Assembly (NCBI RefSeq): GCF_023822025.1
Contig: NZ_CP082909.1
Location: forward strand, 806,001 to 870,000
Direction of reading: 5' to 3'
From: Endozoicomonas sp. 4G
GTDB taxonomy: Bacteria; Pseudomonadota; Gammaproteobacteria; Pseudomonadales; Endozoicomonadaceae
DNA: 64,000 nt
Shown here: positions 19,477 to 28,711 of the stretch, piece by piece
Position numbering within the stretch: position 1 is the stretch's first letter
How the letters are laid out: each line of letters begins with the position of its first letter
Notes under the pieces: generated by a model
The model's database searches: none
Told to the model about the DNA's origin: nothing
Seen by the model: only the letters and a program-made list of their open reading frames with translations
Program-made: the position numbers and the translations under genes

Positions 19477-21012
19477 TTAACGGGCGATAGCTAAACGTTC
19501 AACCTGTACGGCCTTAATCTCTTTGTCTGCTTCCTTCAGTGCGGCAATCTGTGTAGAACTCAGGGAACCGATAGGACTCCCGTTCTCCATAAGCCTGAAC
19601 TCTTGTCGATCCACCAGCACCGTCAAGCCGAGCTGACGTAACCGAGCGTTAACCCTATTAGCGATCTCAGGACTGCCTACCGATGAATCAATGTCATGCA
19701 TAATGTCAGCATAGGCGCTGATACGTTCGTTAACGGACAGTTTGGCTTTATGTTCCACCTGATAGGCTTGGAGTTTTGCCTGTGCTTGGCTTTTAGCGGC
19801 TATAGAGCCCGTTAGAGTAGCCGTTAGTGCTCCAATGGTACTAGGGTCTACTGTAGTGGCTATCGCTGCCTTAACGTTGTCTATGGCGGTCTGATGCCCT
19901 GCTATCGTTTGCTCCAGTTCACGTAATGTGGACGAATGCTCATCGTCATGCTCCGCTGGTGGCCTTGAATCAACGTTAGCCAACAGGCATTTTAGAGCGA
20001 GCATAGAGTCAGCGTAGGATACGTTCACGCCACCACTACATGACCTTAAATGTTCCTTAGCCACGCAACGTAGATACTTGTAGGGCACTCTCGGCTGATG
20101 ATAGACCCGTACGCCGCTACAAGTTCCGCACTTGACTATACCTTTGAATAGATTATCGGTATAGGACGCTAGACCTCTGCGTTTCGATTGGTCTTGCTTG
20201 CCCTTACGTAGCTCCAGAGCTGCATAGAATACACGTTCGCTGACTATCGGCGGATATAAGGGAACTGGAGTGGCGTTAGGCTCTCTTGGTGTCCATAGGC
20301 CAATGACGATCCCGCTAGTGAGAATCGAACGGATAGACGATATAGACCAACTTTTCTCATGGTCTGGACTATTGGTCTGCATGAAACGCTGAAGCTCTGC
20401 ATTGGGCATACCGTCAAGGTAGCGTTGGAATAGCTTCTGTATCAGCTCTGCACGCTCTGGAATAGGCTTATAGCCAGCGTCAGGGCAACGTTCAAGCCAC
20501 CAAGGGCATCTACCGCCAATACTTTTAGCCCTGCCATCCCGTGCCTTCTGCCAAGCTCCAAGGCTCCGTTGGCTTTTAATAAGGTTTTCTTCATGCGCAC
20601 GATGCAGGTTTACCATCGCTATCATTAGTGCGCCTAAGTTATCTTTGTCTGCTGGAGTGTAGACCTGATTATCACTCACGGTTGCTACCGTCACACCAGC
20701 CGCTAATAAGGCCTGAAATGTAGCCATGCCCTGCGATAGCTTGTCTCGACTCACTCGGTCTAATGATTCCACGATTAGTGCGCATGGAGTACTAATGCTG
20801 CCTGACTGGACAGCCGATAGGAAGTCTGAGAGCTCGCCTCGTTTGACGTTAGCCCCACGGAATGCTGAGACTCCGAGGTCATTGAAACTAACGTCTGAGA
20901 GCGTCCAGCCCTGCTTTATGGCGAACTCTCGGCTGGCTTTAGTCTGACGTTCGAGACTGGAGCCTTTGGCCTGTTGTTGACTGGAGAAGCGGCGGTAACT
21001 GTAAGCCTGCAT
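19477..21012 (-). CDS. Large serine recombinase (integrase)
   Basis: A 511-residue phage/ICE-type integrase. The N-terminal catalytic domain has SYRRFSSQQQ with the nucleophilic Ser near residue 10, ESLDRVSRDKL, and the E-helix LHRAHEENLIKSQR. The recombinase domain follows (GGRCPWWLE to SIRSILTSGIVIGLW), then a zinc ribbon starting KCGTCSGVRVYH with later Cys residues, and a coiled-coil region (TLRELEQTIAGHQTAIDNVK) as is usual for directionality control. AAGGA lies eight bases before the ATG. Its 5' end points outward to the proposed right attachment site, as is common for such elements. Confidence 0.94.
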   Translation of the reverse strand: MQAYSYRRFSSQQQAKGSSLERQTKASREFAIKQGWTLSDVSFNDLGVSAFRGANVKRGELSDFLSAVQSGSISTPCALIVESLDRVSRDKLSQGMATFQALLAAGVTVATVSDNQVYTPADKDNLGALMIAMVNLHRAHEENLIKSQRSLGAWQKARDGRAKSIGGRCPWWLERCPDAGYKPIPERAELIQKLFQRYLDGMPNAELQRFMQTNSPDHEKSWSISSIRSILTSGIVIGLWTPREPNATPVPLYPPIVSERVFYAALELRKGKQDQSKRRGLASYTDNLFKGIVKCGTCSGVRVYHQPRVPYKYLRCVAKEHLRSCSGGVNVSYADSMLALKCLLANVDSRPPAEHDDEHSSTLRELEQTIAGHQTAIDNVKAAIATTVDPSTIGALTATLTGSIAAKSQAQAKLQAYQVEHKAKLSVNERISAYADIMHDIDSSVGSPEIANRVNARLRQLGLTVLVDRQEFRLMENGSPIGSLSSTQIAALKEADKEIKAVQVERLAIAR

Positions 21013-21082
21013 GTTCGGTGTCCTTAGTAACTGGAGTACGAACGTGCAGGGTATCGCTAGTTAGTACTATGGTCAATTACGG

Positions 21083-21091
21083 CTGCCATAA
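21083..21091. repeat. Candidate right attachment site of the recombinase element
   Basis: CTGCCATAA, identical to 15579-15587. If these are the att cores, the element is about 5.5 kb and entered the region upstream of the T3SS operon, 56 bases from its first start codon. Confidence 0.35.
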
Positions 21092-21146
21092 CGATAGTTC
21101 ATCTAAGCTTTATGGAAGTATATGCAGCGTTTTTGGAAGAAGGTTT

Positions 21147-22865
21147 ATGCCAGACAGAGCGACGGGCGTCGGTACTACTCAAACTACGCCTCCTGTTGAT
21201 TTAGGACATTCAGAGCAGGAGGTCAGTGAAACAGGTCGGTTGGGTCCCAGAAATGTAACCGGAACACCGGGGCAGAGTCTGGTTGGCAGACGTGACCCTG
21301 AGGATTCGGATCCTGCACCAGGAAGTATACATTCACGGACTGCTTCTAGAATCCGTCATAGTCAGGAGGATTTGCCAGAACTCATAGAAGCAGAGCTGGA
21401 AGGTTCACTGAGCAATGATGAAGCTTCTGAATTGCTCCGTTCGCTTCAGGCCTCCAGAAAGTCTTCCGGCACAAGCCCTTCCAATCCTTCTGAACTTGAT
21501 GGGGCGCACTCAATACTTGACCCGGACGATGAAGAGGCTTCGCTTCAACCCGAATCTCAGGAAACACCTTCTGGAGAATATGAGGAAAGTTCTACCCCAG
21601 ACTCCGATGACGACCTTACATCAACACCGACTCCTGCTGAAAAAGCAAAGGTGTCTGTCAGTTCATCTGCGGATCCTGATGCGCAAAGAAGAAAAGAAGA
21701 ATTTAAAAATCAACTTCAGCCCAAGCTCGGTTTTTTCGATAGGCACAAAAAAGAGTCAACGGTCACCGCAGTGGGTAGTGTTCTGGTGGGCGTGGGTGCC
21801 CTCGGAACCATCATTTTCCCCCCAGTAGGATTTTGTATATACGCTTGCGGAATACTGGTGCTGAGTATGGGCCTTACCGAGTTGATGGCTTCTGGTGATG
21901 TTCCGGACAGCCCGCCGCCCACGCCGAAACCTGATAAGCCTGAACCAAAACCTGATGAATCTAAATCAAAACCGGGTGAAAACAATGCCGATGATGGCAA
22001 GTTTATGGCGGTTCGCAAACCCGTTCTGGAAGCCCTTACCCAGGGGGATGGTGCGATTCCTGTCAGGGAAGATGGTTCTCTGGATGAAGACGAAGCTAAA
22101 AAAAGACTTAGGAAGCTTGCGCAAGAGAGCGGGATTAATGCAGACCCTGAAGTGCTTTTGGAGCAAATGTCTACCGGCATACAAGCAGGTCTGCCCCTTT
22201 CAGAGGTGATTGCAGAGGCTCTTGCCGATGTATTGAGTAGGGATAAGAGTATTGATCCTCATGATGCAGAATTTAAAGCGGTCACAAATGCTATTTTGAG
22301 TGCCGCAGAAGCCATGATGGATGCCACATCGGCCAGTGAAAAAGAGCAGGCACTGACTGAATTCCTGGCAAAACTGAAAGAGATGTTGCCGAGAATGAGC
22401 GATGCATCGTTGGGCCAGCTGATGGCCATGACCCGGGGCGCTCTTGTCAGTTCCGGCACAGAAGAAGCCAGACAAATATTGACCAGTGTATTGAAGCTGC
22501 TCGAAGCAGAAATGGCAGAGCGGTCGTTAAAACAGCAGAGCTCAGCGGCACCCGGGGGATCTTCGAAAGTACCTCCACAACCCTCTGCCAGTGAAGCAGT
22601 CGCTTCAGAGCCGGTTGATCTGTCTATTTCAAAAAACCGGGTTCATTATCGGGTGCTTTCTTTTGAGTTGAGCACTTTAAAGAGTGCCGATCGTCTTAAT
22701 GGTAATGACAGCAATGACTTCCTGAATGCCGCCAAAGAGGTGCTCGAAAAGCCCAGGGGGGAAAGTATTACGGGAGCACAGTTTTTAGATGAGCTTGAAA
22801 GATATACCGGGGGCAGGTTCACTCAGATCATTGAAAAAATGAGAGATAAAAAACATTTTAAATAG
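21147..22865 (+). CDS. Unknown acidic protein with a membrane hairpin, possible T3SS effector
   Basis: A 572-residue protein without a family I recognise. I start it at the ATG at 21147, preceded by AAGAAGG; the longer frame crosses the proposed attachment site. The first 200 residues are Ser/Glu/Asp-rich and disordered-looking. A hydrophobic pair follows (TAVGSVLVGVGALGTIIF, and GFCIYACGILVLSMGL, about residues 210-250), then a Pro/Lys-rich linker (PPPTPKPDKPEPKPDESK) and a helical C-terminal half. Position just before the translocator genes on the same strand, the N-terminal composition and the membrane hairpin fit a secreted effector or an extra translocator; that is inference. Confidence 0.55.
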   Translation: MPDRATGVGTTQTTPPVDLGHSEQEVSETGRLGPRNVTGTPGQSLVGRRDPEDSDPAPGSIHSRTASRIRHSQEDLPELIEAELEGSLSNDEASELLRSLQASRKSSGTSPSNPSELDGAHSILDPDDEEASLQPESQETPSGEYEESSTPDSDDDLTSTPTPAEKAKVSVSSSADPDAQRRKEEFKNQLQPKLGFFDRHKKESTVTAVGSVLVGVGALGTIIFPPVGFCIYACGILVLSMGLTELMASGDVPDSPPPTPKPDKPEPKPDESKSKPGENNADDGKFMAVRKPVLEALTQGDGAIPVREDGSLDEDEAKKRLRKLAQESGINADPEVLLEQMSTGIQAGLPLSEVIAEALADVLSRDKSIDPHDAEFKAVTNAILSAAEAMMDATSASEKEQALTEFLAKLKEMLPRMSDASLGQLMAMTRGALVSSGTEEARQILTSVLKLLEAEMAERSLKQQSSAAPGGSSKVPPQPSASEAVASEPVDLSISKNRVHYRVLSFELSTLKSADRLNGNDSNDFLNAAKEVLEKPRGESITGAQFLDELERYTGGRFTQIIEKMRDKKHFK

Positions 22866-22959
22866 TCATTAACTGATGTTTTTAATGAAGTTTTGGCATT
22901 GAAGCCATGTACTAAATTAATGCTAATGTGATTTGCTCAAAGCGGCAGGGAGCCCATTT

Positions 22960-23796
22960 ATGACTGATTCCACACCATCGGTGGATAACAAGGGAGGAGT
23001 AACACTCACTGGCACACAGGGGTCTGTTCATCTTACTGATGCCAAAAGAGACTCACTCCGGGCTGCGGGTTTCAGTGATGCCCAGATCGATGCTTTGCTG
23101 TCACTGGCCGACCCTGATGATCAGGGGAATTCCCTGACACCTACTCACTTTTATACCGTTGACAAGTCAACACTCAACTCCCTCCAATATTCAGGCAAGC
23201 TCACGGACGCGGCAAAACAGCTGGTTTATGTCCAGACCCCGGTCTCCCTTATGAATCAGGTCAGTGATCCGAAAAACTGGCAGGGGGATAATTATATTGG
23301 TCCGGGTGCGGCCTCTGTAAATGCCTATTTGAACGGAGAACCTGTCGATTTTTCCAAGCCCAGTCTGGATGCCCTGGTGATGTCAGTGCTTACGGCCAGG
23401 GCAGAAATCATAGAAGTTCAGCTCAGAGACCAGATTGAATCAATTCAGGATAAGAACGCCCAGTTGGAAGTGGCAAATGACTGGCTGGCCAAAGCCAAGG
23501 CTAAAAAAGTGGAAGCCGGTACATCCGGCACATCAACCTTTAGTCAGGAGTTCAAGGAATTCTGGACTAGCCTTGGTGCCAAGTTTCAGGACGGCAGTGA
23601 TCACAATTCAGCCGACTGGGAAGTTAACATTGAAGGCCTGAAGACCAAAATTGAAGCTTTGACCAGTCAATCCCAACTGGAAACAACCAAGCTGCAGCAG
23701 ACTATAAATAAATATAACCAAAGCTTTGAAATGCTTTCGAACTTCGTCAACAAATACTATCAGTCACTCAGTACGATTATTCAGAACCTACGGTGA
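22960..23796 (+). CDS. sctA: T3SS needle-tip or filament-like protein (SctA candidate)
   Basis: A 278-residue predicted secreted protein. After a short N-terminus comes one copy of the motif shared with both pore proteins (residues 29-63, AGFSDAQIDALLSLADPDD), then a helix (SLDALVMSVLTARAEIIEVQ) and a C-terminal coiled coil ending NKYYQSLSTIIQNLR. The two-helix layout recalls EspA/SseB-type filament proteins. It lies directly upstream of the translocator chaperone and pore genes, where such proteins are coded. GGGAG precedes the ATG at 22960. The SctA assignment rests on architecture and place, not on strong similarity; an accessory translocator is the alternative. Confidence 0.55.
   Translation: MTDSTPSVDNKGGVTLTGTQGSVHLTDAKRDSLRAAGFSDAQIDALLSLADPDDQGNSLTPTHFYTVDKSTLNSLQYSGKLTDAAKQLVYVQTPVSLMNQVSDPKNWQGDNYIGPGAASVNAYLNGEPVDFSKPSLDALVMSVLTARAEIIEVQLRDQIESIQDKNAQLEVANDWLAKAKAKKVEAGTSGTSTFSQEFKEFWTSLGAKFQDGSDHNSADWEVNIEGLKTKIEALTSQSQLETTKLQQTINKYNQSFEMLSNFVNKYYQSLSTIIQNLR
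23044..23148 (+). other. Shared T3SS motif, copy in the tip-like protein
   Basis: Thirty-five codons matching the consensus K-x3-L-x2-MGFS-x2-Q-x-DALLSLADPDDEGNSL-x3-H found in three neighbouring T3SS genes; here the third position before GFS is Ala. Confidence 0.8.
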
Positions 23797-23814
23797 ATCA
23801 TGGAGGATTCCGTT

Positions 23815-24291
23815 GTGAATGAAGAAGCCAAGATGAATGAAGGTGAAGAACTTGATGATATGCTTCTTGAGTTCTTTGGCAAGGGTGGAACCTTCAAGGA
23901 CCTGAAGAATATGAGTGACGATGCCATGGAGGCTATATACAGCGTCGCTTATAACCTTTATCAGGGAGGAAAGTACGAAGAGGCACAAAAGGTCTTTCAG
24001 TTTCTCTGCTTCTACGATCACTTCAATCGAAAATACTTTATGGGGCTCGGTGCCTGTCAGCAAATGATGAAGCAGTATGAAAATGCTATTGAAATCTTCA
24101 CTTTTGCTACTGTGCTGGATGCCGACGATCCCAGACCTATGATCTACATCGGCGACTGTCATCTGGCGATGGGTGACAATGAAAAAGCAAAAATGTCTTA
24201 CGAGACAGCCATTGAGTGGACTGGAAACGCGGCTGCTTATGAGGAAGAAAAACAGAGAGCCGAAAGTATGCTGGATAACCTGAGCAGTTAA
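23815..24291 (+). CDS. sctG: T3SS translocator chaperone, SycD/LcrH class (TPR)
   Basis: A 158-residue class II chaperone that keeps the pore-forming translocators soluble before export. Three TPR units are visible, including SVAYNLYQGGKYEEAQKVFQ, YFMGLGACQQMMKQYENAIE and PMIYIGDCHLAMGDNEKAKM, the typical SycD/SicA layout. I choose the GTG at 23815, seven bases after a strong GGAGGA; an in-frame ATG at 23800 has only a weak site and an ATG at 23833 is also possible. It lies between the tip-like gene and the first pore gene, its likely clients. Confidence 0.9.
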   Translation: MNEEAKMNEGEELDDMLLEFFGKGGTFKDLKNMSDDAMEAIYSVAYNLYQGGKYEEAQKVFQFLCFYDHFNRKYFMGLGACQQMMKQYENAIEIFTFATVLDADDPRPMIYIGDCHLAMGDNEKAKMSYETAIEWTGNAAAYEEEKQRAESMLDNLSS

Positions 24292-24307
24292 GGGAAGAGG
24301 TGAAAGG

Positions 24308-25873
24308 ATGTCTTCAATCGGTCAGGGACCTGTCCCTACAGAACAAACCGGAAATATTCATCAGGCTTCTTTTAATGGCGTTGATGCCGTTGATAATGAA
24401 GAAAATCCGGTTCAACGGGGTTTTAGTCACCAGAACAGTTACTCAAGAACGGAAGGTGGAGAAGCTCCGAAAGCACAGATCAATGCGCCTGTCCTGGATG
24501 CGCCATCGGCTAATGCTGAGTCCGACAAAGCGACTTCAGAAGTATTGAAGCATCAGGAAGGGCAGGCAACAGACAAGTCGGGAAAAAGCCCCAAAACGCT
24601 TGGTGAGGTGGTTCAGGAACACAGGAACCTTCCCATCAGAAAGCAGACAGACCATCTTCAGGCTAAGCGTACTGAACTTGAAAAGATGGGCTTTAGTAAA
24701 TCCCAAATTGATGGGATGTTGTCTGTAGCTGATCCCAATGATTCGAAAAACACTCTTGCCCCGATGCATTCTGCTTCTGCCCGATTCCAGGACATGGACG
24801 CCCGGGGGGGCGATCCCAAGCTGAATACACTGTTTGATACTTTTGAAGACGTTATGGTTCGTTTTTCTGCCATCAGAGAAATCCCGGACGATCTCAAAGC
24901 AGAGCTGACCAAGGATCTTGATACGTTCACCAAAGCTGCTTTCAATGCTGAGAAGCCTTTGGATATTGATAGTGCTACCACGATGCTGGTGCAGATTCAG
25001 TCAAAACTGCAGAACGAACGACTCCGGTTTGATCAGGAAAGTATCAAGATAGGTCAAGTCGCTGCCGGGCAGCGCAGTAACAATATCATCGATAAAATCC
25101 GTGAATCCATTGCCAAGGTCGAAGAATCGAAAAAATCCCAAATGGTAGGGAAAGTTTTCAATTATATCGGGCTGTTCTTCATGGTGGTTGCTTCCATCGC
25201 AGTGGCTGCTGCGGGACTTCTTACCGGTGGTGCGTTAAGTATTGTTGCTGCAAGTCTGATGGTTGCGGCGACAGGTCTTATGATCACCATGACGGTTTCA
25301 TCAGAAACCGACAACTTCATGATGAAAATTTTTGACGGCCTTGCCAGTGACGAAGAAGGTGAGAAAGGTGCCAAAATTGGTGCCACGGTCTTTTGGGCGA
25401 CGATTATGATCGCACTTACCGCAGGCGCAGCTGTCGCAGGTGGCGCTATCGGTGCAGGTGGAACCGCTGCCAGTACCGCTTCATCGAGTGCCGCAACAGG
25501 TTCTTCAACGGGGGCAACGGTGACGGCGACAGGCGCTAACACGGCGGCAGCCTCATCAGCGGCTGTAGCAAAAAATGTTGCGATCCTGAACCGAGTAGGA
25601 CAAACCGCCCAGTGGATAGGGGGAGCCGGTCAGATAGCTTCCGGTGGTGCTGATATCGGAACCTCGGTTTACAAATACCAGGCAGACCAATTCAAAGCAG
25701 AAGCGCTTGATGAAAAAGCTGAAATGGTCAGGATCCAGAAGGCCATCGATGATGCTATGGAAGGTTTGGAAAAGGCTATCGAAGAACTCCAGAATGGCTA
25801 CTCCACAGCCGCCAGCATCATTAAAGCAAATCATGAAACCAAGACAACACTTGCGCGCAACCTGCGTGCCTGA
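24308..25873 (+). CDS. sctE: T3SS translocon pore protein, YopB/SipB/EspD class
   Basis: The larger hydrophobic translocator that inserts in the host membrane. At 521 residues it has a disordered N-terminus, one copy of the shared motif (KMGFSKSQIDGMLSVADPND, about residues 120-154), a coiled-coil region, and two hydrophobic regions: FNYIGLFFMVVASIAVAAAG with the following Ala-rich helix, and ATVFWATIMIALTAGAAVAG, separated by a short loop. A C-terminal amphipathic coil follows. This is the classical arrangement of the class. AGAGGT precedes the ATG; the gene begins 16 bases after the chaperone stop. Confidence 0.9.
   Translation: MSSIGQGPVPTEQTGNIHQASFNGVDAVDNEENPVQRGFSHQNSYSRTEGGEAPKAQINAPVLDAPSANAESDKATSEVLKHQEGQATDKSGKSPKTLGEVVQEHRNLPIRKQTDHLQAKRTELEKMGFSKSQIDGMLSVADPNDSKNTLAPMHSASARFQDMDARGGDPKLNTLFDTFEDVMVRFSAIREIPDDLKAELTKDLDTFTKAAFNAEKPLDIDSATTMLVQIQSKLQNERLRFDQESIKIGQVAAGQRSNNIIDKIRESIAKVEESKKSQMVGKVFNYIGLFFMVVASIAVAAAGLLTGGALSIVAASLMVAATGLMITMTVSSETDNFMMKIFDGLASDEEGEKGAKIGATVFWATIMIALTAGAAVAGGAIGAGGTAASTASSSAATGSSTGATVTATGANTAAASSAAVAKNVAILNRVGQTAQWIGGAGQIASGGADIGTSVYKYQADQFKAEALDEKAEMVRIQKAIDDAMEGLEKAIEELQNGYSTAASIIKANHETKTTLARNLRA
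24665..24769 (+). other. Shared T3SS motif, copy in SctE
   Basis: Thirty-five codons aligned without gaps to the copies in the neighbouring genes; the acidic loop is DPNDSKNTL instead of DPDDEGNSL. Confidence 0.8.
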
Positions 25874-25891
25874 GTCTCAAGGAGGTAGATT

Positions 25892-27385
25892 ATGTCACAG
25901 GTAGGACAGACAGGCGCGTCGCAAAATACGCCGGTGGACTATAGTTCTCAAGCACCCGCATTGGGTGGCACAGCCCCCTTGGATGAAGTGGGTCGTGGAG
26001 ATCTCGATGGCGAGAACCTTCGATATTCCCGTGAAGCCAAAGGCACCGAGGTTCTGAAAGGTCAACAGAACAGGGCACCAGAGCTTGATAAACCCGGTGA
26101 GGTCAAGCCTACCCATCTTGAAACAGCCAGTTCTGACGTCAACGACATCAGTAAGTTTACTCAGTCGTCTATTGAAAATACTAAAAAGCTGGCGGAAGGT
26201 TTGCGCACTGGCAACCTCAATCCGGAACAACAACAGCAGCTGAAAAGAAACACCGAACTTTTGAAAGGCAGTGCTGGCCTCTTAGGTAACCTTCATGGTC
26301 ATAATCTCGGAACGGCTGAGGGTAAGAGAAGTGTTCTTGCCGGAATGGGCTTTAATCAGAGCCAGCTTGATGCCCTGATGTCACTGGCGGATCCCGATGA
26401 TGAGGGTAACTCTCTGGCATCTATGCATGGCGGTCAATCAGCCTTACAGGGTAAAAAAGATGCTCTGAAATCCATGGGTTTCAGTGAGAGTCAGGTGGAT
26501 GCCTTGCTGTCACTGGCGGATCCTGATGATGAAGGCAATTCATTGATGTCAACTCACCAGGCCGGGTCCGGGAAACATAAATCGGCGCTTGCCTCTCAAG
26601 GGTTCAGCAATGCCCAGACACAACGTTTGACCGCTCTGTTGAACGGCCAGACATTTGGTACTGAACAACAAAAAGAACTGCTGAAGCAGATGGGTTTCAG
26701 TGATGCAGAAGCCGATGTACTGCTGGCAGCAGCAGACCCTCAATCGTTGAAAACACAAGGTAATCTTGCCCGAACAACCGATGCTAATCAGCTGGCCCAT
26801 CTGCAAGAGATGGCCAAGGCGGCCAACATTCTATCAACAGGCAGTCCGATAGGGGACAGAGTGCTGCAACAGCTGGTGGATATTTTTACCGTGTTTGAAC
26901 TCCTTCACGAGATGAGTATTCAGGGCCGAAGAACCGCCAGGGAAACCAGGGCTGTTGAGTATGACGCAGCCAAACAGGAAGTTCTGAACCAGGCCGACGA
27001 AATCAGAAGCGCTGCCGCATGGGCCTTGGGAGCCGGTATCGCCGGCGGTGTTGCGAAAATAGGTGCAGGTTCCGTGGCAATATTCGGAGCGCGGGGAGGC
27101 GGTTCCGCCGCTGAGCAGTCTATCAGGATGCAGCTGGCTACCCAGAGGGCTCAGATAGTAGGAGGTTTCGGTGACATTGCTTCTGCGAGCCTTAACTATC
27201 AGTCTTCAAAGCATCAGGCTCTGCAGAAAGAGCACGAAGCCTACCAGAAAACCCATGAAAACTCGGCTCAGAGTTCATCTGAGTGGATGCAGTTACACCA
27301 GGACATGGTGAAGACCGTACAAAGTAAAATGGACGAAATTATCAGAACCTGGTTCGAGACGCTGAAAACCACTACAAGGGGCTAA
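25892..27385 (+). CDS. sctB: Second T3SS translocator, EspB/SseD/YopD-like, with motif repeats
   Basis: A 497-residue protein. The C-terminal half resembles the smaller translocator class: DAAKQEVLNQADEIRSAAAW, then the single hydrophobic region ALGAGIAGGVAKIGAGSVAI, then QIVGGFGDIASASLNYQSSK and a long amphipathic coil. The N-terminal half has two nearly complete copies of the shared 35-residue motif, then two degenerate ones. Small translocators are often shorter, so the repeats explain much of the extra length. AGGAGG lies just before the ATG. It follows SctE by 18 bases and shares the SctG chaperone context. Confidence 0.85.
   Translation: MSQVGQTGASQNTPVDYSSQAPALGGTAPLDEVGRGDLDGENLRYSREAKGTEVLKGQQNRAPELDKPGEVKPTHLETASSDVNDISKFTQSSIENTKKLAEGLRTGNLNPEQQQQLKRNTELLKGSAGLLGNLHGHNLGTAEGKRSVLAGMGFNQSQLDALMSLADPDDEGNSLASMHGGQSALQGKKDALKSMGFSESQVDALLSLADPDDEGNSLMSTHQAGSGKHKSALASQGFSNAQTQRLTALLNGQTFGTEQQKELLKQMGFSDAEADVLLAAADPQSLKTQGNLARTTDANQLAHLQEMAKAANILSTGSPIGDRVLQQLVDIFTVFELLHEMSIQGRRTARETRAVEYDAAKQEVLNQADEIRSAAAWALGAGIAGGVAKIGAGSVAIFGARGGGSAAEQSIRMQLATQRAQIVGGFGDIASASLNYQSSKHQALQKEHEAYQKTHENSAQSSSEWMQLHQDMVKTVQSKMDEIIRTWFETLKTTTRG
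26324..26770 (+). repeat. Four tandem copies of the shared T3SS motif in SctB
   Basis: Copies start at the Lys codons 26324, 26453, 26579 and 26672. Copies 1 and 2 both contain ADPDDEGNSL; copy 3 keeps only the first half (SQGFSNAQTQRL), and copy 4 reads QMGFSDAEADVLLAAADPQ. Start-to-start distances are 43, 42 and 31 codons. Confidence 0.8.
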
Positions 27386-27439: not shown

Positions 27440-28711
27440 ATGACTATTCCACTCGACAGGGCCGGTAGTGCATCAGCGCCATCGTTTCTGGAGAGTAACC
27501 AGAACGTTGCAGGTAACCAGGGAGCCAAAGGCAAGGTTGCCGGGCAGGAGGTTCGGGTCAAAACTGATGCTGCTTCTGCACTGCAAAATGCAGAAGAGAT
27601 GTCCATGGTCGCCGACCGCTTCAAGCAAACCAAACTTAAAGACAGAAAACTCTCCAGTGGTTCAGAACTTTCTGACAAGCTGCTTGAGCGTATCAAGAAA
27701 ATACAGGCTATTCAGGAAACCCAGGCATTTAAGGATCTGGCTAATAATTTCAGTAATCAAACCAACCTCAACCCCAACCAGGTTCTAAAGCAGGCTCAGG
27801 AATTTTCAGACGACGTGCTTGAGCAATTTGCAGCACTGGATTTTGCTGCAGACTATTTTGAAGCGCAGGGAGACGAAGACAAAGCCAGGCAAATTCGAAC
27901 TGCTCAGCAAAGCATCAGGGAAAAGAACCCGACACTGATCCAGGCGGGTCTCAATATCTCTGAGCCAGCAGCTAAGATGATCGAAGAAATGGGCTTTGAT
28001 GTTGATGTTCGCACAGTCCGGGAAAGCTATGCTGGCTTCATTGATTCAGCGAAGACAGACCATGTGCGAGATGACCGTTCACTCGTGCAAACGTATCGCT
28101 ACCTGGTAGAAACCTATGGCGCAGAAAATCTCGAAGGAGCTATCCAGGGACAGCTGGATCTCCTTGCGACGGATTTGAACTGTACCACTCACTCCACTTC
28201 GCCGGTCAGATTGAAAGTCATCATTGATGATATGAAAGGGTTGAAGATTCAATCAGGCGTTCATGATGCCTGCTGTGAAGCAGAAGAAAGACTGGAAAGA
28301 ACATTCCCTGAAGAAAACGTCGCTCGATTTGTAATGATGGAAGGGATGCTGGAGCTTGTCGATCAGCAGTGGGTCACAGACTCTGAATTTGAGAAGATGC
28401 CAAAAGACATGAATCTGAAAGGGCTGCAGGCTCAGATTTTTGCTTTAACTGCCATCGTGGAAGTTGTCAGCTCCATTCCTGAAGAAGTATTTACCAATGA
28501 TGAGACCAAACTGAATATGCTGTCTGCAGCAAAAGACAGTCTGGATACCAAAATTGAAGAGGAAGAGTCAGTGGCCATTGAAGAGGCTGATCTGGATGCT
28601 GTGCTGGATGATGATTTTCTGGGTGAGGTAACCGCCTCGCTGAATTTGCCACCGAGTAAAAAAGTTGAAACGCCTTTTTTTAATGCTGAGAAGGATAAAA
28701 AATCTCAGTAG
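27440..28711 (+). CDS. sctW: T3SS gatekeeper SctW (YopN/SepL/HrpJ family)
   Basis: Controls the switch from translocator to effector export at the cytoplasmic face of the export gate. The N-terminal region is low in structure, followed by a HrpJ-type helical domain (ELSDKLLERIKKIQAIQETQ, FSDDVLEQFAALDFAADYF). The C-terminal part (about residue 300 on) corresponds to the TyeA-like domain fused into one chain. At 423 residues it has the single-chain length of SepL/InvE-type proteins rather than split YopN plus TyeA. GGAGG is six bases before the ATG. The next gene codes a SycN-like chaperone, a partner of YopN-type proteins. Confidence 0.88.
   Translation: MTIPLDRAGSASAPSFLESNQNVAGNQGAKGKVAGQEVRVKTDAASALQNAEEMSMVADRFKQTKLKDRKLSSGSELSDKLLERIKKIQAIQETQAFKDLANNFSNQTNLNPNQVLKQAQEFSDDVLEQFAALDFAADYFEAQGDEDKARQIRTAQQSIREKNPTLIQAGLNISEPAAKMIEEMGFDVDVRTVRESYAGFIDSAKTDHVRDDRSLVQTYRYLVETYGAENLEGAIQGQLDLLATDLNCTTHSTSPVRLKVIIDDMKGLKIQSGVHDACCEAEERLERTFPEENVARFVMMEGMLELVDQQWVTDSEFEKMPKDMNLKGLQAQIFALTAIVEVVSSIPEEVFTNDETKLNMLSAAKDSLDTKIEEEESVAIEEADLDAVLDDDFLGEVTASLNLPPSKKVETPFFNAEKDKKSQ

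Follow-up and report, generated by a model that had tools for sequence, protein, structure and literature searches.

The tip-like protein and both pore proteins, SctE and SctB, of a type III secretion system (T3SS) in the analysed window (the whole stretch of DNA, 64,000 nucleotides long) share a 35-residue motif, and we infer, tentatively and with a probability of about 0.4, that this motif is an assembly module joining the three. Comparison of the sequences establishes how the motif is distributed and conserved, that it spread long ago without later copying, and that it is restricted to translocators in the searched genomes.

Motif copies in the translocator operon

Judged from the sequences, the locus belongs to the T3SS translocon operons with the order tip-SctG-SctE-SctB (Table 1), and the TyeA and HrpJ models score over their cut-offs on the adjacent gatekeeper, SctW. 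The Pfam SctB2 model stays below its cut-off on the SctB of the window (13.6 versus 26.5). The motif copies that the sequence-only reading had claimed in the tip, in SctE and in SctB (two near-complete and two degenerate) were all recovered at the positions it gave.

Table 1. Features of the translocator locus, with positions in the window
Feature	Position	Strand	Details
Tip-like protein gene (SctA position)	22933..23796	+	motif segment N-terminal, EspA-like part C-terminal
Motif copy, tip-like protein	23044..23148	+	aa 38-72; E 1.5e-22, four-row profile
EspA-like coiled-coil part of tip	23248..23793	+	aa 106-287
SctG, SycD/LcrH class translocator chaperone	23800..24291	+	TIGR02552 E 1.3e-47; 161 versus cut-off 104.8
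SctE, large pore protein	24308..25873	+	SseC domain aa 226-518; PF04888 E 7.8e-20, 72.1 bits, cut-off 30.2
PVLDAP, PxLxxP-type chaperone-binding motif of SctE	24488..24505	+	aa 61-66
Motif copy, SctE	24665..24769	+	aa 120-154; E 3.6e-23, four-row profile
SctB, small pore protein	25892..27385	+	NF038055 38.5 bits, cut-off 37
PELDKP, PxLxxP-type chaperone-binding motif of SctB	26078..26095	+	aa 63-68
SctB motif copy 1	26324..26428	+	aa 145-179; E 1.2e-22
SctB motif copy 2	26453..26557	+	aa 188-222; E 4.1e-23
SctB degenerate copy 3	26576..26680	+	helix-turn-helix half only; E 4.3, four-row profile; E 2.7e-4, other search
SctB degenerate copy 4	26669..26773	+	helix-turn-helix half, loop lost; E 1.9e-4, four-row profile; E 1e-9, other search

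The four good copies can be aligned gap-free and share 18-24 of 35 residues in pairwise comparison and 53-75 of 105 nucleotides. A profile built from these four copies recovered them at E values of 4e-23 to 2e-22 and, across the whole genome of origin, found the motif at E <= 0.01 nowhere outside the tip, SctE and SctB; the next matches were at E 0.18, in an open reading frame just upstream (21486-21551), and then at 0.9 elsewhere. Local alignments of the N-terminal regions score 10 to 20 standard deviations over 100 shuffles used as reference (z of 12.2 for tip-SctE, 19.8 for tip-SctB and 9.9 for SctE-SctB, the last alignment also spanning the stretch around the PxLxxP motifs). The profile search and the z-scores rule out a chance likeness. 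The degenerate SctB copies are real repeats: across the 22 genomes of the two motif-rich genera, counterparts recur at E <= 0.5 in 13 genomes for copy 3 and in 21 for copy 4, tallies derived from pair counts of 78 and 210.

The tip-like protein is 287 residues long when read from TTG 22933 and 278 residues from ATG 22960. The former start is probably too early, because three of four orthologues start at the equivalent of ATG 22960. Outside the motif segment the protein looks EspA-like, that is, like a filament or tip protein, in a structure comparison by VIA-align that barely tested the motif part. The EspA (PF03433) and SseB (NF052422) models left it unmatched in the Pfam and NCBIfam scans; a short relative came close to the EspA cut-off (22.6 versus 23.4), and the best SseB score was 24.8, far below the NCBIfam cut-off of 155. 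Tip relatives are 205-218 residues long in the genera g6-g8. Outside the family they have 160-189 residues, with one paralogue of 341, in six of the eight loci examined; in two of the eight (L104 and L106) no clear tip or SctB could be recognised, and the count leaves out proteins of 163, 208 and 295 residues in L099 and L106 that matched the tip profile weakly, at 7.7-8.3 bits.

Distribution and history of the copies

Within the Endozoicomonadaceae, 24 of 37 genomes gave 87 profile matches, 85 of them in tip, SctE or SctB genes and the remaining two in orphan paralogues of the tip. Apart from these two, the expectation that the motif is limited to T3SS clients is confirmed in the searched genomes, and comparison of the orthologues bears out that it is kept in orthologous T3SS loci. 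Because 85 of the 87 matches fall in three proteins that must assemble together, this distribution favours the assembly module. So does the presence of the SctE copy in all 22 genomes of g1 and g5 and in none of the 15 others, as does the joint absence of the N-terminal tip segment and of recognisable SctB copies from all nine genomes of g6-g8. In G022 the SctE copy is split across two frames; it was taken from the longer fragment, with its first residues out of frame, and included among the 88 copies compared. Going by the species names given for L011 and L012, g1 would correspond to Neoendozoicomonas and g5 to Endozoicomonas sensu stricto. Dropped before the conservation and nearest-neighbour counts were L012 (the same contig as L052), the orphan tips L063 and L064, and the divergent operons L050 and L065; the short SctE fragment of L044 and L065 were dropped before profile building.

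The acidic loop, which the sequence-only reading expected to be conserved, is indeed intact in the tip (20 of 22) and in SctE (22 of 22); for SctB this does not hold, as 10 of 22 genomes have no copy with an intact loop. These are nine of the 12 g5 genomes and G019, in which the SctE loop is kept, so that strict compatibility among all three proteins is not required. One genome, G004, has an intact tip copy and no SctE copy, which weakens the assembly module.

The nearest neighbour of each of the 88 copies is its orthologue. This indicates an old spread followed by separate maintenance of each copy and, together with the nucleotide identities above, rules out recent duplication or gene conversion; it is also one of the grounds on which the assembly module is favoured, as are the low dN of the tip and SctB copies and the high column identity of the SctE copy. 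In comparisons with the two nearest relatives, the tip copy shows a dN of 0 at dS of 0.39 and 0.46, over 35 codons only, and the two SctB copies have dN values of 0.019-0.025, compared with 0.084-0.087 for the rest. The dN of the SctE copy (0.063 and 0.145) is no lower than that of the remaining SctE sequence (0.062 and 0.070), which counts against the assembly module. When more distant g1 genomes are compared, where dS is saturated, the dN of the motif is not always the lower one: 0.121, 0.08 and 0.039 versus 0.12, 0.172 and 0.18 for the tip; 0.131, 0.363 and 0.238 versus 0.187, 0.319 and 0.321 for SctE; and 0.33, 0.191 and 0.14 versus 0.287, 0.309 and 0.281 for SctB. The mean column identity of the SctE motif is 0.61, rank 17 of 487 windows, compared with 0.29-0.45 for the remaining windows printed upstream of residue 200. 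In tip and SctE, Pro-24 and the terminal NSL-x3-H hardly vary.

It is quite improbable that the repeat is a selfish or neutral element, duplicated between neighbouring operon genes and kept as a tolerated spacer. The genes are adjacent, the tandem copies of SctB stand at different stages of decay, decay has reached both the tip and the SctB copies of G019, and a different segment is common to SctE and SctB in G029 and G030, all of which would fit such a spread. Against it stand the absence of amino acid change in the tip copy, the loop pattern and the final His, still present in 22 of 22 SctE copies, and the age of the spread, with no recent copying.

A single spread of the motif before the split of two Endozoicomonadaceae genera is part of what appears to be the best explanation. 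In a tree of SctG, SctE and the C-terminal part of the tip, g6-g8 group at 0.998, g1 and g4 at 0.989, and g3 joins these at only 0.560; a published genome tree places the streamlined genera with Endozoicomonas sensu stricto (PMC13286007). In a tree of 34 columns, too short to trust, the tip and SctE copies are nested within SctB copy 2.

Beyond the family, five of 368 other genomes matched in a class set and seven of 397 in a phylum set, at E values of 0.0008 to 0.009. With a per-genome limit of 0.01, about four chance matches are expected per set (a few genomes are in both), and the matches span just 16-22 positions, within motif positions 2-24; given this number and this short coverage, they are treated as chance. 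Eight genomes outside the family have an SseC match (two in the class set and six in an order set, one of them below the family cut-off), and their T3SS loci gave no motif match at E <= 1; the best match anywhere in these genomes was at E 0.013, inside an open frame of 24725 residues. A scan of 84,980 species that reached close SctB relatives only returned four loci, titled Endozoicomonas, and in plasmids the tip N-terminus and the SctB repeats were unmatched at E 0.1. Absence of the motif from other T3SS is stated on the basis of these eight genomes, the SctB-limited scan and the plasmid searches.

Known folds, ligands and the chaperone

No described protein family in the searched libraries gives the module a clear match: the known-domain hit that would have spoken against novelty did not appear, as Pfam scans of the proteins and of single copies gave no family over its cut-off at the motif. 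The likeness of the second half to an EF-hand was not upheld. The motif resembles EF-hand loops in having an acidic loop after a helix and differs from them in the ligand pattern, since the full set of ligands at loop positions 1, 3 and 5, Gly at 6 and an acidic residue at 12 is present in none of the 88 copies. That the motif is an EF-hand-like switch, binding calcium and sensing it within the host or outside, is therefore very improbable; the EF-hand_8 match to the SctB of the window (E 3.3e-4, below cut-off) and the weak matches of three of 23 single copies speak for it, while acidic or amide residues (or Ser) occupy positions 1, 3 and 5 in only 16 of the 88 copies and position 5 is Pro in 19 of 22 SctE copies.

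With UBA domains the motif shares a helix-MGF/Y-turn-helix and marginal matches to UBA-like families, but the score in the window (14.0 bits) is under the cut-off of 22.4 and one of 23 single copies matches, at E 0.21; the copies show two helices in low-confidence models, without the third of the UBA bundle. Other small helical families also stay below cut-off, the commonest being RepB_primase_C (best E 0.012) and DUF4473 (best E 0.063), each matched by five of the 23 single copies. The many short IcmE/DotG repeats of Legionella (PDB 7muc, 9ngw) are matched by the first half of the motif, with a whole-chain E of 1.6e-8 and 21 stretches listed; homology was rejected, as the best single stretch has 12.1 bits over 14 residues with an E of its own of 1.5 and lacks the loop, an effect of summing over repeats. 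Matches to XopD and ribonucleotide reductase have E values of 0.5 or worse. Single-chain models predict helix pairs at five of five copies, which suggests, at low confidence (pLDDT of about 52-61 at the motif in the tip and mostly under 50 in SctB), a helix-turn-helix followed by a loop.

Translocators are exported and surface exposed. The motif might thus be a module facing the host or the sea, one loop on three exposed proteins that binds a single host surface molecule or ion, and the near invariance of Pro-24 and of the NSL-x3-H end would agree with this. The family is associated with corals, sponges, molluscs and fishes (PMC13286007), which also agrees with it. Nonetheless, no known binding domain clearly matches the motif and the pre-membrane region of a pore protein would be an unusual place for receptor binding, and we consider this account unlikely.

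The sequence-only reading had also offered an interaction with the chaperone SctG. As a sorting tag, the motif would be recognised within the bacterial cell, whether by SctG or by the gatekeeper and export gate, and would mark exactly the translocators to leave ahead of the effectors. Its restriction to the translocator class of substrates is consistent with such a tag, as is the place of SctG between tip and SctE, with no separate tip chaperone recognised among nine scanned open reading frames. PxLxxP has a chaperone-binding function (PMC4536800). A search for it that covered residues 1-160 of the best-scoring frame for SctE and for SctB (the G022 SctE fragment counting as a miss) located it in SctB of 34, SctE of 12 and the tip of one of the 37 family genomes. 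The option is kept alive by the 25 genomes in which SctE has no PxLxxP. It is weakened because an ordinary PxLxxP lies elsewhere in SctB and in the SctE of the window (in the window neither hexapeptide falls inside a motif copy) and because SctG is present in motif-less genera. The SctG of g6-g8 still shares 55-58% identity with its g1 and g5 counterparts, and only four columns separate the two sets by being fixed in one and missing in the other. Moreover, no SctG turned up within 13-kb stretches around the orphan paralogues of the tip, which carry the motif themselves, and several copies per client would presumably be unusual for a tag. A chaperone role is thus disfavoured and, on balance, unlikely.

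A proposed role in translocon assembly, and known systems

As an assembly module, the motif would consist of a small helical hairpin, about 22 residues long, and after it an acidic Asp/Asn-Pro loop with Asn-Ser-Leu-x3-His at its end. The motif would have entered the N-terminal, pre-membrane parts of all three translocators in one spread, and its copies may bind one another, or one common adaptor, outside the cell. Through them the EspA-like tip, SctE and SctB could dock into one translocon, with the tandem copies of SctB adding further contacts.

The helix pairs modelled at five copies and the resemblance of the rest of the tip to EspA favour this reading, and the low confidence of these single-chain models weakens it. 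To our knowledge, T3SS as a rule assemble with no module of this kind, and nine family genomes do so without the tip segment, which also counts against it. Furthermore, copies resemble one another little more within a genome than between genomes (for instance, tip-SctE 0.449 versus 0.434), a difference too small to indicate co-adaptation. A tip-to-pore contact, PopB-PcrV, is essential in Pseudomonas (PMC9600203), and this is a further reason to favour the assembly module.

As far as we know, recognition between tip and pore proteins at the end of the type III needle is poorly resolved. If the assembly module is real, its occurrence in all three proteins of one lineage, with the tip segment and the SctB copies missing together in sister lineages, would offer a natural handle on this contact. 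The motif also shows that the N-termini of translocators can be enlarged by a module spreading between unrelated genes of one operon. More speculatively, this one small undescribed domain might be a docking code common to all three translocator classes, with the unrelated segment of SctE and SctB in g7 as an independent instance of the same trick; we consider this less likely than not. The bacterium itself is related to symbionts of marine animals, and the proteins that carry the motif belong to its molecular syringe.

Compared with known systems, SctE and SctB of the window resemble the SseC/YopB-type pore proteins in the SseC domain, the match to an SctB model and the presence of PxLxxP in both, and differ from them by the motif copies in their N-terminal regions. 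The tip, in turn, differs from tip and filament proteins of the EspA/SseB/EseB type by about 105 extra N-terminal residues, which bear the motif.

The motif within the translocon operon

The window contains a T3SS translocon operon, in which a 35-residue motif common to the tip-like (SctA-position) protein, SctE and SctB had been placed by the sequence-only reading at positions that all proved exact on re-checking. A profile built from four motif rows and run on the whole 6.0 Mb genome gave five matches at E <= 0.01, found only in the translocon genes. The next-best matches had E values of 0.18, in the ORF immediately upstream of tip, and then 0.9 elsewhere. Alignments among the N-terminal parts of tip, SctE and SctB scored 10 to 20 SD over shuffles, with the SctE-SctB score raised by a short stretch common to these two proteins, running from YSR to a PxLxxP motif, which is probably the chaperone-binding region.

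The 615-aa ORF directly upstream of tip has relatives in nine other genomes of genus g1, a partial relative in G003 (genus g3) and, by eye, one likely membrane segment. Its DPDDEEASL stretch recalls the motif loop (E 0.18), no Pfam family was over the cut-off in it, and it is possibly a secreted substrate. Upstream of the T3SS genes, on the opposite strand, lies a gene for a serine recombinase with Resolvase and Recombinase domains. A second tip-like gene straddles the window start (G000:C1 of the same genome, about 804.9-806.0 kb); the C-terminal part of its 368-aa product matches the tip profile (E 2.8e-9) and weakly SseB (E 0.0022), and the protein carries an EF-hand-like stretch, TDASGKGQLTPEEW.

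Coordinates of genes and segments (L, fetched loci, with coordinates within the locus)
Feature	Sequence	Coordinates
Tip-like protein	window	22933-23796
SctG	window	23800-24291
SctE	window	24308-25873
SctB	window	25892-27385
SctW	window	27440-28711
YSR-to-PxLxxP stretch	window	24437-24505, 26021-26095
615-aa ORF	window	21018-22865
Serine recombinase	window	19477-21012
Second tip-like gene	L098	613-1719
Orphan tip paralogue	L064	7323-8162
Orphan tip paralogue	L063	5602-6408
Genes with the GQK..RRQNVLA.EV segment	L071	4719-6557, 6583-8010
Genes with the GQK..RRQNVLA.EV segment	L072	
Gene with the GQK..RRQNVLA.EV segment	L077	6460-7935
SctE over two frames	L044	3737-5318
SctE over two frames	L060	5307-6716
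SctB with other repeats	L067	5838-7313

Distribution and conservation

The operons of 36 other Endozoicomonadaceae were fetched and their genes classed, giving a sample of 37 genomes with our own. The motif was matched at E <= 0.01 in 24 of them, and 85 of the 87 matches fall in the translocon operon itself, within tip, SctE or SctB, as assigned by position and frame length. The remaining two belong to orphan paralogues of tip in G008 and G018, which stand away from that operon and have an intact motif; in G008 the neighbours are what we take to be a coiled-coil ORF and an ORF resembling dihydroorotate dehydrogenase. Given that an SseC-domain protein is over cut-off in all 37 genomes, the motif-poor ones are not T3SS-negative.

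The copy in SctE is carried by all 22 genomes of genera g1 (n=10) and g5 (n=12); in G022 the gene spans two frames, with the split at the motif. SctE of G016 also occupies two frames, in its C-terminal half, and both cases are either real or an assembly fault. With intactness defined by a pattern fixed in this analysis, 20 of the 22 genomes have an intact loop in tip (G018 and G019 have short deletions), and 9/10 g1 genomes (exception G019) and 3/12 g5 genomes have at least one in SctB. The six genomes of g2, g3 and g4 keep the N-terminal segment of tip, with the full motif in G004 only, and have no SctE copy; SctB of g2 and g4 has helix-turn-helix repeats that lack the acidic loop. SctB of G003 has internal repeats of another kind, near aa 102 and aa 242, instead of those of the motif. 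In the nine genomes of g6, g7 and g8 the tip segment is wholly absent (tip, 205-218 aa) and no SctB copy was seen.

SctE and SctB of the g7 genomes G029 and G030 have another segment in common (z about 11 over shuffles), distinct from the motif and about 30 residues long (GQK..RRQNVLA.EV), which occurs also in SctB of G035 (g8); it is a second case of a segment common to two translocators. In eight genomes outside the family with an SseC match, the T3SS loci yielded no match to the motif; the clearly recognised tip relatives there (6/8 loci) have 160-189 aa, apart from one extra 341-aa paralogue (L100).

For tip, SctE and the two main SctB copies of the 22 g1 and g5 genomes, the nearest neighbour was the orthologous copy of another genome in 88/88 cases, indicating that the module spread between genes before the g1/g5 split and that the copies were not homogenised afterwards. 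In comparison with the two nearest relatives, dN is 0 for the tip copy (dS 0.39 and 0.46) and 0.019-0.025 for the SctB copies, versus 0.084-0.087 for the rest of SctB; the SctE copy is not exceptional in this comparison (dN 0.063 and 0.145 versus 0.062 and 0.070). Across the 22 genomes, the SctE motif is among the best-conserved SctE stretches (0.61, rank 17 of 487 windows), the tip motif ranks 49 of 253, and the SctB copies 86 and 95 of 463, with the degenerate copies 3 and 4 at 233 and 222.

Known domains, chaperone binding and a proposed docking role

The likeness to UBA domains stayed below profile cut-off, and that to EF-hands did not hold. Pfam on SctB gave EF-hand_8 (E 3.3e-4) and UBA (E 0.048), both below cut-off, and copies scanned singly gave weak matches only, to EF-hand_8 in 3/23 and UBA in 1/23; the EF-hand ligand pattern occurs in 0/88 copies.

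In Chlamydia CopB, according to PMC4536800, the hexapeptide PxLxxP is required for binding of an LcrH-type chaperone. It was found in SctB of 34/37 genomes and SctE of 12/37, and in the window (SctE PVLDAP, SctB PELDKP) it lies outside the shared motif, which disfavours a chaperone role for the latter, although the 25 SctE in which it was not found leave that role some room.

The three carriers are the proteins that meet at the needle end, and in Pseudomonas the contact of tip with pore is described as essential in PMC9600203. We infer, as the most economical reading, a docking module, which would join tip, SctE and SctB to each other or to one common partner. The likeness of copies within one genome is hardly above that between genomes, so that co-adaptation between copies is not demonstrated.

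As far as its accessible part goes, PMC11521996 names the translocon genes of one family member and no more. Among the open-access papers listed by text searches on Endozoicomonas T3SS translocons and on T3SS translocators with an EF-hand or shared motif, no title or opening of an abstract described such a module. No other T3SS is known to us in which tip and both pore proteins carry one motif. The translocon operon itself is classed as ordinary, and what is new as the undescribed module common to its proteins.
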